Part shown: positions 31,218 to 35,319 of the stretch, piece by piece
Layout: every line of letters begins with the position of its first letter
Position numbering within the stretch: position 1 is the stretch's first letter
From: Winogradskyella sp.
GTDB taxonomy: Bacteria; Bacteroidota; Bacteroidia; Flavobacteriales; Flavobacteriaceae
Direction of reading: 5' to 3'
DNA: 64,000 bases
NCBI RefSeq assembly: GCF_003712105.1
Contig: NZ_RHLG01000002.1
Span: forward strand, 186,001-250,000
Translations under genes and position numbers: made by a program
Notes under the pieces: generated by a model
Told to the model about the DNA's origin: nothing
Databases searched by the model: none
What the model saw: the letters and a program-made list of their open reading frames with translations, nothing else

Positions 31218-34200
31218 TTATTCATTCACCAAAACCCATTCACCTTTTTCTATTAACGGAATGGCTTGTTTGTATTTCACCACTTTACTTTCACCGCTCA
31301 TCACGTGCTTAATTGTAACGCGGTCATTACGTCCAATTTTTGGTTGTTCTCTAACTATAGTTTCTACAACTTGTTGCTGACGTGAAGCGCCTGCACCTAC
31401 AGCTCTACTTTGAGCTGCGCGTTCATCCATATTTTGGATTTCTTCTTTTTGCTCTTGAGTTTTTTCGCGTTTACGTGTTTTTGCTTCTTGTATTGTATTT
31501 GCAGTTTCTTGTGGGATTTCTCCTTTAAATAAAAATGATATTACATCTTTATTGACTTGGTCAATCATGCTCTTAAACAATTCAAAAGCTTCAAACTTAT
31601 AAATTAATAATGGGTCTTTTTGCTCGTGTACAGCTAACTGTACAGATTGCTTTAACTCATCCATTTTGCGTAAATGTGTCTTCCAAGCATCATCAACAAT
31701 TGCAAGCGTAATGTTTTTCTCGAAATCGTTAATAAGCTGCGTTCCCTTTGTTTCGTATGCCTTTTCAAGATTTGTTACTACTTGCAGTGTTTTAATACCA
31801 TCTGTAAATGGTACCACGATACGCTTAAATCTATCACGTTGTGTCTTATATACATTTTCAATAACAGGATATGCTAAATCTGCAGCGCTTTGCATTTTGT
31901 TTCTATAGTGTGCAAAAGCCTCCTTATAAATTGTACCCGCAATTTCTTGTGGACTTAATTTAGCAAATTCCTCCTCTGAAATTGGAGAAGACATAGAGAA
32001 GAAACGAATTAACTCAAACTCAAAATTCTTAAAATCGTTGACTTCTTTATTTGCTTCAGCAATTACTTCTGAAGTGTCAAAAATCATATTAGCCAAATCT
32101 ACTCGAAGACGCTCACCATGTAAGGCATGACGACGACGTTTGTATACTACTTCACGCTGAGCATTCATAACATCATCATACTCTAAGAGCCGTTTACGCA
32201 CACCAAACTGATTTTCTTCAACTTTCTTTTGAGCACGCTCAATAGACTTAGAAATCATACTATGCTGAATCACTTCTCCTTCTTTCAGTCCCATTTTGTC
32301 CATCATCTTAGCAATACGCTCACTACCAAATAATCGCATGAGGTTATCTTCTAAAGACACATAAAATTGAGAACTTCCTGGATCACCTTGTCGTCCAGAA
32401 CGACCCCTAAGTTGTCTATCTACACGTCTAGAATCGTGACGCTCAGTACCAATAATAGCTAAACCGCCAGCTTCTTTAACAGCCTCAGTTAATTTAATAT
32501 CCGTACCACGACCTGCCATGTTAGTTGCTATTGTTACTTGTCCTGGTTTACCTGCTTCAGCAACAATATCTGCCTCTTTTTTATGAAGTTTTGCATTAAG
32601 TACATTATGGGGTACTTTACGTTGCGCTAATATTTTTCCTAATAATTCTGAAATATCTACAGAAGTAGTACCAATTAATACTGGTCTTCCTTCTTGTGAT
32701 AATTTAGTCACTTCATCAACAACGGCATTATATTTTTCACGCTTTGTTTTGTAAACTAAATCCTCACGATCATGACGTGCAATGGGTCTGTTGGTTGGGA
32801 TTTCGACAACATCTAACTTATAGATTTCCCAAAGCTCACCAGCTTCGGTCACGGCAGTACCAGTCATACCAGACAGTTTACGGTACATTCTGAAGTAATT
32901 TTGTAGTGTTACAGTAGCAAAAGTTTGTGTAGCATCCTCAATTTTTACATTTTCTTTGGCTTCAATCGCTTGGTGTAAACCATCACTATAGCGACGACCG
33001 TCCATAATACGACCAGTTTGTTCATCGACAATCATTACTTTATTGTCCATCACTACATACTGTGTGTCTTTTTCGAAAAGTGCGTAGGCTTTCAAAAGTT
33101 GACTTAGCGTATGAATACGTTCAGATTTTACTGAAAAATCTCTGAATAGTTCTTCTTTTTCAGCAGCTTCAGCTTCTTTTTCAAGTCCTTTGTTTTCAAT
33201 CTTGGCGATTTCAGTTCCCATTTCTGGCATCACAAAGAAATTAGGATCTTCTTTACCAGAAAGGTATTCTACACCTTTATCAGATAATTCAACTTGATTA
33301 TTTTTTTCATCAATAACATAATAGAGTTCTGCATCAACCTTTGGCATTTCTCTGTTGTTATCTTGCATATAAAAGTTCTCTGTTTTTTGAAGTAGTTGTT
33401 TGATACCTTCTTCACTTAAAAACTTAATTAATGCTTTATTTTTTGGTATACCTCTATAGACCCGAAGTAATTGAAAGCCACCTTCTTTTGTGTCTCCTGA
33501 AGCAATAAGTTTTTTAGCTTCAGCTAGAACACCAATAAGATATTTACGTTGAGTTTCTACAATACTACTTACTTTAGGTTTTAACTCATTGAACTCGTGC
33601 TCATCTCCTTTAGGAATTGGCCCAGAGATAATTAATGGTGTACGTGCATCATCAATTAATACAGAGTCAACCTCATCCACAATAGCATAGTGATGCGGCC
33701 GCTGTACTAAATCATCGGGTGAATGTGCCATATTATCGCGGAGATAATCAAAACCAAATTCGTTATTTGTTCCGTAAGTAATATCTGCATTATAGGCTTT
33801 ACGACGTTCGTCAGAGTTTGGTCTATGATGGTCAATACAATCTACACTTAAGCCGTGAAACTGAAATATTGGTGCCATCCAAGCACTATCGCGCTTTGCG
33901 AGATAATCATTTACAGTAACTAAATGCACACCACGACCTGCTAATGCATTAAGATATACTGGCAGTGTAGCTACAAGTGTTTTACCTTCACCAGTTTGCA
34001 TCTCGGCAATTTTACCTTGATGTAGTGCAATACCACCAATAAGCTGTACATCATAATGTATCATGTCCCAAGTAATAGGCTTACCAGCAGCATCCCAAGA
34101 ATTTGCCCAAAGTGCTTTATCACCATCAAGCGTGACATAATCATTATCACCGGAAATTTCTCTGTCAAAAGCATTGGCAGTAACTTCAATCTCAGTGTTA

Positions 34201-34574
34201 TTTACAAATCGTTTTGCAGTTTCTTTTACGACAGCAAATGCTTCTGGTAAGATATCGTTAAGTACTTCTTCTGTAATCGTATAGATTTCGTCTTTAATGC
34301 GATCTATTTCTTGATAAATATCTTCGCGCTCATCGATATCTTCTGTGGCTTCTGCTTTGGCATTGAGCTCATCGATTTGCTCATTGAATGGCTTACGAGC
34401 AGCTTCAATAGTTGTTTTAAAATCAGTAGTTTTTGCTCTTAATTCGTCATGAGATAAAGCTTCTAAGGCTGTTTCAAAAGTCTTAATCTGATCAACGAGT
34501 GGCATAATGGACTTAACGTCTTGTTTGGATTTGTCTCCAACAAAAACTTTAAGTACAGAATCTAGTAGTCCCAT
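31218..34574 (-). CDS. secA: Preprotein translocase ATPase SecA
   Basis: SecA drives protein export through SecYEG. The 1118-residue protein has Walker A MQTGEGKTLVATLP, the DEAD-like VDEVDSVLIDDARTPL, GTDIKL, and GRSGRQGDPGSSQFYVSLED. It is longer than E. coli SecA, with inserts common in Bacteroidota, and ends VVKYKQAIPLIEKGEWVLVN without a zinc-binding tail. The GIY-YIG element stands 17 bases before its start, so transcription must come from inside or beyond that element. The last 74 bases recur at 29991-30064. Confidence 0.97.
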   Translation of the reverse strand: MGLLDSVLKVFVGDKSKQDVKSIMPLVDQIKTFETALEALSHDELRAKTTDFKTTIEAARKPFNEQIDELNAKAEATEDIDEREDIYQEIDRIKDEIYTITEEVLNDILPEAFAVVKETAKRFVNNTEIEVTANAFDREISGDNDYVTLDGDKALWANSWDAAGKPITWDMIHYDVQLIGGIALHQGKIAEMQTGEGKTLVATLPVYLNALAGRGVHLVTVNDYLAKRDSAWMAPIFQFHGLSVDCIDHHRPNSDERRKAYNADITYGTNNEFGFDYLRDNMAHSPDDLVQRPHHYAIVDEVDSVLIDDARTPLIISGPIPKGDEHEFNELKPKVSSIVETQRKYLIGVLAEAKKLIASGDTKEGGFQLLRVYRGIPKNKALIKFLSEEGIKQLLQKTENFYMQDNNREMPKVDAELYYVIDEKNNQVELSDKGVEYLSGKEDPNFFVMPEMGTEIAKIENKGLEKEAEAAEKEELFRDFSVKSERIHTLSQLLKAYALFEKDTQYVVMDNKVMIVDEQTGRIMDGRRYSDGLHQAIEAKENVKIEDATQTFATVTLQNYFRMYRKLSGMTGTAVTEAGELWEIYKLDVVEIPTNRPIARHDREDLVYKTKREKYNAVVDEVTKLSQEGRPVLIGTTSVDISELLGKILAQRKVPHNVLNAKLHKKEADIVAEAGKPGQVTIATNMAGRGTDIKLTEAVKEAGGLAIIGTERHDSRRVDRQLRGRSGRQGDPGSSQFYVSLEDNLMRLFGSERIAKMMDKMGLKEGEVIQHSMISKSIERAQKKVEENQFGVRKRLLEYDDVMNAQREVVYKRRRHALHGERLRVDLANMIFDTSEVIAEANKEVNDFKNFEFELIRFFSMSSPISEEEFAKLSPQEIAGTIYKEAFAHYRNKMQSAADLAYPVIENVYKTQRDRFKRIVVPFTDGIKTLQVVTNLEKAYETKGTQLINDFEKNITLAIVDDAWKTHLRKMDELKQSVQLAVHEQKDPLLIYKFEAFELFKSMIDQVNKDVISFLFKGEIPQETANTIQEAKTRKREKTQEQKEEIQNMDERAAQSRAVGAGASRQQQVVETIVREQPKIGRNDRVTIKHVMSGESKVVKYKQAIPLIEKGEWVLVNE

Positions 34575-34590
34575 TTGGTATATATTTTTT

Positions 34591-34975
34591 TGTCACGCTG
34601 AGCGCAGTCGAAGCGCTTTTACGTAATTTCATTGTATTTGTAATGTGTTGCATTTCTGCATTCAGATAAAATCTGAAGCAAATCATAATTATTATTTTTT
34701 AGAGCTTCTTTTTTAGCTCTTGTCCATTTCTTAATTTTCTTTTCAAAATGTATAGCTTGAATTACATCATTAAACTCTTGCCGAAAAACTAACCTTAAAG
34801 GTCGGAGTTTGTATGTATAGCAATCCTTGTATTTGCCTAATTGATGTTCGTTAAATCTTTTGCTAATGTTATTAGTAATTCCTGTGTAATAGGATTTATC
34901 AGAACATTTTAATATATAAACATAATAACGAAACATTGTATCTTAAATTGGACTTCGACTGCGCTCAGTCTGACA
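34591..34975 (-). mobile_element. Putative GIY-YIG element with 23-bp terminal inverted repeats
   Basis: Ends 34591-34613 and 34953-34975 are inverted repeats matching at 21 of 23 positions, both starting TGTCA from the outside and ending GCGCAGTCGAAG. The 385-bp unit contains only the nuclease gene. It sits between a consensus -7 box (34999-35006) and the secA ATG, as an insertion would. No target-site duplication is evident. The related gene-less repeat at 12383-12448 has the same end pattern. Confidence 0.6.
34619..34936 (-). CDS. Small GIY-YIG nuclease-family protein
   Basis: The 105-residue protein is almost only a GIY-YIG domain: YYVYILKCSDKSYYTGITNN carries the two Tyr-containing strands (the YVY and YTG forms of GIY and YIG). 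RFNEHQ has the catalytic-helix Arg and His, and AIHFEKKIKKWTRAKKEAL contains the metal-binding Glu. The family (UvrC-N-like, UPF0213 type) cuts one DNA strand in characterised members; this branch is not characterised. Inverted repeats flank the gene on both sides, and the same kind of repeat occurs elsewhere in the window. Confidence 0.88.
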   Translation of the reverse strand: MFRYYVYILKCSDKSYYTGITNNISKRFNEHQLGKYKDCYTYKLRPLRLVFRQEFNDVIQAIHFEKKIKKWTRAKKEALKNNNYDLLQILSECRNATHYKYNEIT

Positions 34976-34998: not shown

Positions 34999-35006
34999 CA
35001 AATATA
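34999..35006 (-). promoter_or_regulatory. -7 promoter element upstream of the GIY-YIG gene, possibly the original secA promoter
   Basis: The minus strand reads TATATTTG, a full match to TAnnTTTG, with a weaker TTTC about 20 bases upstream. It lies outside the right inverted repeat, so the inserted element separates it from secA. Confidence 0.5.
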
Positions 35007-35041: not shown

Positions 35042-35082
35042 AAAAAAAGTCTCCATGTTTAATAACTAAAGAGACTTTTTTT
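35042..35082. terminator. Bidirectional terminator
   Basis: Arms 35042-35053 and 35071-35082 (AAAAAAAGTCTC/GAGACTTTTTTT) pair perfectly around a 17-base loop, with A and T runs at the ends. It follows the DUF2795 gene on the minus strand. Confidence 0.85.
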
Positions 35083-35097
35083 GTGTTGTTTATTTTA

Positions 35098-35319
35098 TTA
35101 ATATTCGTCCTCATTCCAGAGGTAATCTTCATCAGTTGGATAGTCTGGCCAAATTTCTTCAATAGAGTCGTAAGAATCACCTTCATCTTCTATAGCTTGT
35201 AAATTTTCTACCACTTCTAAAGGTGAACCGGTTCTAATCGCGTAATCGATTAACTCATCTTTAGTTGCTGGCCAAGGTGCATCACTTAAATACGATGCTA
35301 ATTCTAATGTCCAATACAT
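35098..35319 (-). CDS. DUF2795 family small protein
   Basis: The 73-residue acidic protein (MYWTLELASYLSDAPWPATK, DELIDYAIRTGSPLEVVENL) matches the DUF2795 helical domain, a small conserved protein of Bacteroidota and other phyla without a settled function. The C-terminus is Asp/Glu/Tyr-rich (DYPTDEDYLWNEDEY). It has its own promoter-like element and a strong terminator, so it is probably monocistronic. Confidence 0.85.
   Translation of the reverse strand: MYWTLELASYLSDAPWPATKDELIDYAIRTGSPLEVVENLQAIEDEGDSYDSIEEIWPDYPTDEDYLWNEDEY

Follow-up and report, generated by a model that had tools for sequence, protein, structure and literature searches.

A small gene for a GIY-YIG nuclease lies ahead of secA in the window (the whole 64-kb stretch of DNA that was analysed) and is bounded by inverted repeats, which raises the question of what ties the enzyme to the DNA on either side of it. 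The original prediction placed the gene within a 385-bp unit (34591–34975) whose ends agree at 21 of 23 positions and carry TGTCA on each side, and both the coordinates and the match confirmed this: the 23-nt arms (34591–34613 and 34953–34975, with 339 nt between them) are 91% complementary, and each opens with TGTCA when read inward. The best 23-nt inverted match in the surrounding 1.2 kb is this one at 21, a value reached by 0/200 first-order Markov resamples (maximum 20), and a chance inverted repeat is ruled out on that basis. Each arm belongs to a tagged repeat. Repeat 1 (34591–34615, plus strand) consists of the tag TGTCA (34591–34595), the stem half CGCT (34596–34599), the core GAGCGCAGTCGA (34600–34611) and the second stem half AGCG (34612–34615). 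Repeat 2 (34951–34975, minus strand) is an inverted copy, with its tag TGTCA at 34975–34971, GACT at 34970–34967, the same core at 34966–34955 and AGTC at 34954–34951. The hairpins reach 2 nt past the arms noted earlier (to 34615 and from 34951), and these extra 2 nt complete the pairing. With up to 3 mismatches allowed, the two unit copies are the only repeat matches in the 64-kb window, each at 0 mismatches; at this limit 11/100 shuffles of the window likewise give 2 matches. The nuclease unit is single-copy in its own genome, with no second copy found, and as a DNA query against the plasmid collection it gave no match.

The structure of the repeat was judged across relatives of the nuclease. 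A 21-sequence profile gave 585 pattern matches and 488 relatives, of which the best 80, presumably all from Bacteroidota, were taken as named loci. Searching these best 80 of 488 loci with the form GTCN-N4-GAG-N3/4-GTCGA-N4 yielded 205 distinct contexts, and the repeat consensus is a hairpin, TGTCA-NNYY-GAG..GTCGA-RRN'N', with a 4-bp stem around a 12-nt core. Watson-Crick pairing holds at the four stem positions in 176, 198, 198 and 198 of the 205 contexts (shuffle maxima 94, 87, 118 and 127). Those shuffles ignore relatedness and a slide test keeps it: 94.0% of 820 cells pair in register, falling to 19–36% when the columns are slid by 1–3. There are 25 different fully paired 4-bp stems, and in 17 contexts from the window's own genome the pairs hold in 15, 17, 17 and 17 of 17. 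Later searches that demanded GTC are no independent test of the tag. Folding energies do not make the case by themselves: MFE folds contain the covarying stem in 11/18 own-genome copies and in neither window copy (z -0.24 and -1.59, each MFE using other pairs), and the case for a hairpin therefore rests on covariation. This covariation is seen directly, and judged by it the repeat is a hairpin.

We then compared the surroundings of the unit with those in related genomes. The unit lies between a DUF2795 gene (35098–35319, minus strand; 2.6e-18) and secA (an ORF at 31218–34574, minus strand; NCBIfam NF009536 SecA, 1934 bits), with 44 nt from the nuclease stop to the secA start. DUF2795 is directly upstream of secA in 16/16 genomes compared (its own and 15 of the same genus), and after DUF2795 comes a terminator-like hairpin, AAAAAAAGTCTC/GAGACTTTTTTT (35042–35082), which the aligned relatives have too. 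The sequence TATATTTG (34999–35006, minus strand), a candidate -7 box by the consensus, also occurs ahead of secA in two relatives, G007 and G012. Since it recurs there, the unit sits between a common promoter-like box and secA, and the separation of box and gene that had been proposed is borne out. Given this location, the nuclease and secA probably share a transcript. The window has 523 nt between the DUF2795 stop and the secA match, and 14 same-genus relatives have 145–271 nt; in a fifteenth (L058), cut by a contig end, secA starts about 165 nt past the DUF2795 stop. Comparing the secA leaders of close relatives had been suggested as a check, and the unit is absent from the leader in 15/15 same-genus genomes examined. 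The idea that the unit was inserted into the secA leader holds in so far as these unoccupied sites are seen directly; no target-site duplication is visible in the same-genus leader alignment, where divergence limits the view and is too great for clean borders (part of the G007 leader has no counterpart in the window). By eye, the G011 leader (L065) contains an inverted pair of related repeats and no nuclease, and one member of this pair was also found by the repeat pattern search at 1 mismatch.

The protein itself appears intact. The gene (34619–34936, minus strand) encodes a single-domain GIY-YIG nuclease of 105 aa (Pfam PF01541, 1.3e-17) with its conserved residues in place: Y7, Y17, G19, R27, H31 and E65, which we take to be catalytic, do not vary across 21 aligned sequences. 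Purifying selection acts on the nuclease, as seen directly in a median dN/dS of 0.082 and a maximum of 0.187 for 65 of 79 close homologue pairs, which are not independent of one another. A protein match was found in 28/40 relatives searched.

Among the best 80 of 488 loci, outward tagged repeats occur within 250 nt on both sides of the nuclease gene in 48, on one side in 21 and on neither in 11, so that the pairing of gene and repeat is a matter of direct observation. Exact inverted arms of at least 12 nt within 150 nt flank 44/80 of these nuclease genes versus 1/212 control ORFs (ORFs in the same loci, not proven genes) and 0.25% of 1600 shuffles; for arms of at least 10 nt the figures are 51/80, 19/212 and 2.9%. 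Tagged hairpins are densest next to the gene (7.65/kb up to 100 nt from it, 2.03 between 100 and 200 nt, no more than 0.2 past 400 nt), and within 250 nt they point outward 133 times (66+67) and inward 39 times (20+19). The tag-to-tag unit has a median length of 391.5 nt in the 48 two-sided loci, the window unit measuring 385. The link between nuclease and repeat is a rule in this family, the reverse of the findings named beforehand as fatal to it, namely genes usually without repeats or repeats placed at random.

Two-sided neighbourhoods divide the best 80 of 488 loci into 45 clusters, 12 of which hold at least two loci; some of the 80 are cut by contig ends, and some singleton clusters may be artefacts. 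Given 45 clusters with 12 of them shared, descent at one site and occupation of many different sites both occur. These neighbourhoods bear on whether the whole 385-bp unit transposes today as one mobile element, in the manner of a composite transposon or homing element. Such movement would account for the absence of the unit at secA in the 15/15 relatives, for an Azospirillum relative that separates sufB from sufC and has a hairpin on either side, and for the G022 pair of nuclease genes (L085/L037), which encode identical proteins and lie 736 nt apart. We nevertheless consider it quite improbable: the own genome has one copy, no target-site duplication was seen, and in several clades the unit stays put, as in the 12 shared neighbourhoods of the best 80 of 488 loci and at the single site of L026, L028 and L029. 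The proteins of these last three are 96–98% identical and the loci differ in repeat number alone; as all are at one site, recent whole-unit movement among them is ruled out.

The repeats fall into four types, with core edges CT..AG or TT..AA, with core edges TC..GA, GAGCTTGTCGA-like, and GTATCGAGAA. Types were given from 150-nt flanks to 95/107 nucleases, 12/107 being unlabelled. On the nuclease tree (106 columns; 51/103 inner branches open) the four types need 6 changes among the 95 labelled of 107, and when 'none' is counted as a fifth group there are 15 changes versus a shuffled mean of 54.4, a value as low arising in 0/200 shuffles. Repeat type tracks nuclease phylogeny, and this match is observed directly. 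Copy number was compared across 25 same-genus genomes, own included, with nuclease type assigned manually: the median is 32 repeat copies per genome with a type A or B nuclease (n=10) versus 10 in the others (n=15, three of which carry another type), with a one-sided p=0.005, or p=0.006 when the own genome is left out. High counts also occur where nucleases of types A and B are absent: G021 has 62 copies, G014 38 and G017 29. As sequence patterns go, the data suggest that each repeat is recognised by its own enzyme, which perhaps also spreads it.

Copies are also dispersed away from any nuclease. At no more than 1 mismatch, TGTCANNYYGAGNNNNGTCGARR has 25 copies in the 3.15-Mb own genome and the reversed control pattern has 0; with the fifth tag base left free there are 27 copies at this limit, and at up to 2 mismatches 38 versus 11 for the reversed control. 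Six nuclease-free outward-tag pairs occur in the own genome, the two starts of a pair being 38–52 nt apart; in four pairs neither member exceeds 1 mismatch, and in the other two one member has 2. Nuclease-free pairs, together with the modest folding energy, are what one would expect if recombination between dispersed repeats had captured the nuclease gene, the repeats themselves being terminators or RNA hairpins that have nothing to do with it; a 2013 study contains a proposal that REPs act at the RNA level (PMC3733652). Such a capture would, however, leave the enrichment bound to the nuclease family (1/212 for other ORFs), its spread over 45 neighbourhood clusters and the agreement of type and enzyme without a cause. 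Three housekeeping-type relatives (two YazA-like, one from Vibrio) also lack repeats; at the two YazA-like loci examined the gene row is yabA, methyltransferase, yazA, rsmI, unlike the window. This explanation we judge very improbable.

Seven of the 27 own-genome copies lie inside stop-free frames of 459–915 codons (L007, L009, L012, L017, L019, L230 and L237), and five of these seven read xVTLSAVExS or xVSLSAVExS. An NCBIfam search of the six frames other than L237 identified an E2 acetyltransferase, RNase R and LeuRS; a second E2 and an E1 scored below the family cut-offs, and L012 had no match. In E1 of the own genome the repeat is read in frame within a loop; six relatives have this loop 8 codons shorter, and in G016 it contains a repeat of another type. 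RNase R carries the repeat in four genomes (in G010 with substitutions), its loop is 13 codons shorter in two, and the remaining genomes have intermediate or other loop sequences. In LeuRS, with that of G010 left out, the repeat is found in three genomes (G000, G013 with substitutions, and G012): G000 and G013 have no net length change versus most others and G012 has 3 extra codons, while G001, G023 and G008 have other hairpin-like sequences at the site. In these three comparisons, then, essential genes have acquired repeats in their variable loops, and the LeuRS sequences tell against simple insertion as the sole route. Hairpin repeats read in frame in protein genes are reminiscent of the palindromic elements of Rickettsia, which insert within genes and differ in sequence. 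Two of these, RPE-4 and RPE-6, are named as CGTC repeats in the 2013 study (PMC3733652).

The same study describes CGTC/TGTC-tagged repeats, Bacteroidetes included, and gives the CGTC REPs an unpaired CGTC tag or its TGTC/CCTC variants, a stem of 8–9 bp that starts with A-T pairs and a loop of 4–5 nt (PMC3733652); it reports no dedicated transposase for this superfamily (Di Nocera 2013, PMC3733652). As far as this description goes, the window repeats share with CGTC REPs the unpaired (C/T)GTC tag at one hairpin end (TGTC in both window copies), the dispersed copies and the inverted pairs, and differ in their 4-bp stem and 12-nt core; the form with 8–9 bp and 4–5 nt is found at relatives such as L048 and L216. 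L048 is a more distant same-genus GIY-YIG gene lying between two copies of TGTC-ATTCCTGC-GTAG-GCAGGAAT-CCA, a repeat that fits the published CGTC-1 form (PMC3733652). Its protein is 53% identical to an N. gonorrhoeae protein flanked by CGTC hairpins. Eleven of 33 L048-type records in the plasmid collection, chosen for variety, were examined with a hairpin distance limit of 300 nt, and tagged hairpins were present on both sides in 7/11, on one side in 2/11 and by this test on neither in 2/11. The seven are from N. gonorrhoeae, S. meliloti, Azospirillum, Novosphingobium, Shinella, Aeromonas and Sphingobium, and include the gene between sufB and sufC on AZO_p3 of Azospirillum lipoferum (L216). 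The N. gonorrhoeae record (L213, NZ_CP119140.1, 2.17 Mb) is filed as a plasmid and looks like a chromosome from its length. Among L048-type loci of Bacteroidota (31, versus 43 control ORFs, which again are not proven genes), both-side tagged hairpins number 10 versus 0 and hairpins on any side 17 versus 4; exact arms of at least 12 nt occur in 9/31 versus 2/43, a weaker excess than for the window type.

A long-stemmed tagged hairpin was present in 0/5 window-type plasmid-collection records examined (5 of 27, chosen for variety), and no repeat was seen by eye at the loci of B. subtilis YazA, a Radiobacillus YazA-like protein and the Vibrio protein either. By eye, a Sphingomonas protein 44% identical to that of the window has a GGCTGAGCGAAGTCGAAGCC pair upstream, and a Methylobacterium window-type locus has another hairpin.

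Small GIY-YIG nucleases that act at repeats are already known. Ssn enzymes, in Neisseria and elsewhere, cut single-stranded DNA site-specifically at a multi-copy repeat; in Neisseria the targets are NTS repeats, and Ssn acts on transformation. Our guess is that the N. gonorrhoeae protein near L048 is Ssn. The window system is like Ssn in its small stand-alone GIY-YIG protein with conserved residues and in a repeat that both adjoins the gene and is dispersed through the genome, and unlike it in the build of that repeat, whose short stem encloses a conserved core of 12 nt. With Ssn and its Neisseria repeats known, and CGTC/TGTC repeats described since 2013, the class is not altogether 'unrecognised', as had been suggested. 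An Ssn-like nuclease might serve restraint and not mobility, cutting exposed or incoming single strands at the repeats and so regulating uptake or recombination, with the repeats spreading by other means. A distant-branch relative flanked by CGTC hairpins in Neisseria, the high repeat counts of some genomes that lack nucleases of types A and B, and the retention of copies inside genes all fit such a role. However, the window protein shares only 29% identity with its Neisseria counterpart (over 79 aa, E 5e-7) and is nearer to B. subtilis YazA (41% identity); it is related in sequence to UPF0213/YazA-type proteins (PDB 1zg2 and 1ywl; match to 1zg2 at 5.5e-12). Restraint by itself also fails to explain why scattered copies still agree in type with the nuclease, and we consider it rather unlikely.

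A parallel in layout is the RAYT/REPIN system, where an enzyme gene is likewise flanked by its own repeats and gene-free pairs exist (PMC3733652). The two differ in enzyme (GIY-YIG here, a tyrosine (HUH) transposase there) and in tag (TGTC here, GTAG there). The analogy with RAYTs drawn in the original prediction stands for the anatomy (tag, hairpin, outward pairs, dispersed nuclease-free pairs and a type that follows the enzyme) and lacks support for nuclease-driven movement of the unit, given the single copy and the missing target-site duplication. By analogy, then, the window system resembles both Ssn and RAYT/REPIN in its apparent working and is a proven member of neither. Among the titles listed in our literature searches, none was seen that links GIY-YIG enzymes to REPs or to the window repeat, which is no proof of absence, and no paper on dRS3 with GIY-YIG came up.

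We think it fairly probable, on the sequence patterns above, that the unit is an outward pair of TGTC-tagged, REP-like hairpins together with a cognate GIY-YIG nuclease that nicks the hairpins and so spreads or maintains the repeats. The nuclease would most likely recognise the hairpin in single-stranded DNA, as at replication forks or during DNA uptake. Recognition would depend on the TGTCA tag and on the conserved core GAG..GTCGA, the stem needing only to pair, and the nick would fall at or near the hairpin, near the tag. Over evolutionary time this activity could spread or maintain the repeats as pairs and single hairpins, the in-frame gene copies included, with the nuclease gene itself often remaining at one site and being vertically inherited. 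More tentatively, and at somewhat less than even chances, GIY-YIG enzymes may be the missing dedicated enzyme of the TGTC/CGTC REP superfamily across phyla, propagating hairpins via single-stranded DNA even in frame into essential genes. If true, this would be a second REP-plus-nuclease system, parallel to RAYT/REPIN and based on an unrelated enzyme. The association described above already puts a name to a candidate enzyme and specifies the tag, core and covarying stem of its likely target; with dozens of natural enzyme-repeat pairs of several types, the origin of such repeats becomes directly testable with oligonucleotides, and the family could be a source of hairpin-specific nucleases of varied specificity.

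A few further loci stood out. Downstream of the nuclease at L029 (G019:C26:158489-158770) there are four successive repeat copies, 58–101 nt apart, and the related G018 locus has one. G016 (L084) has two similar nuclease genes separated by 468 nt, with a third 3.3 kb further along, and the nuclease groups of both G016 and G022 are interleaved with GTATCGAGAA-type repeats. In the own genome, two more GIY-YIG genes (L003 and L004, C6:47815-50942) lie about 3 kb apart, one of them with an internal stop, and by eye each adjoins decayed halves of CGTC-type hairpins. Finally, in L086:1066-2346 (own genome C3), L039 and L088 the GIY-YIG domain forms the N-terminus of a longer frame: the remainder of the L086 frame (128–425 of 427) is a GYDIA-family GHMP kinase (7.8e-127), and L039 and L088 have a CTGAGCGTAGTCGAAG hairpin ahead of the start.
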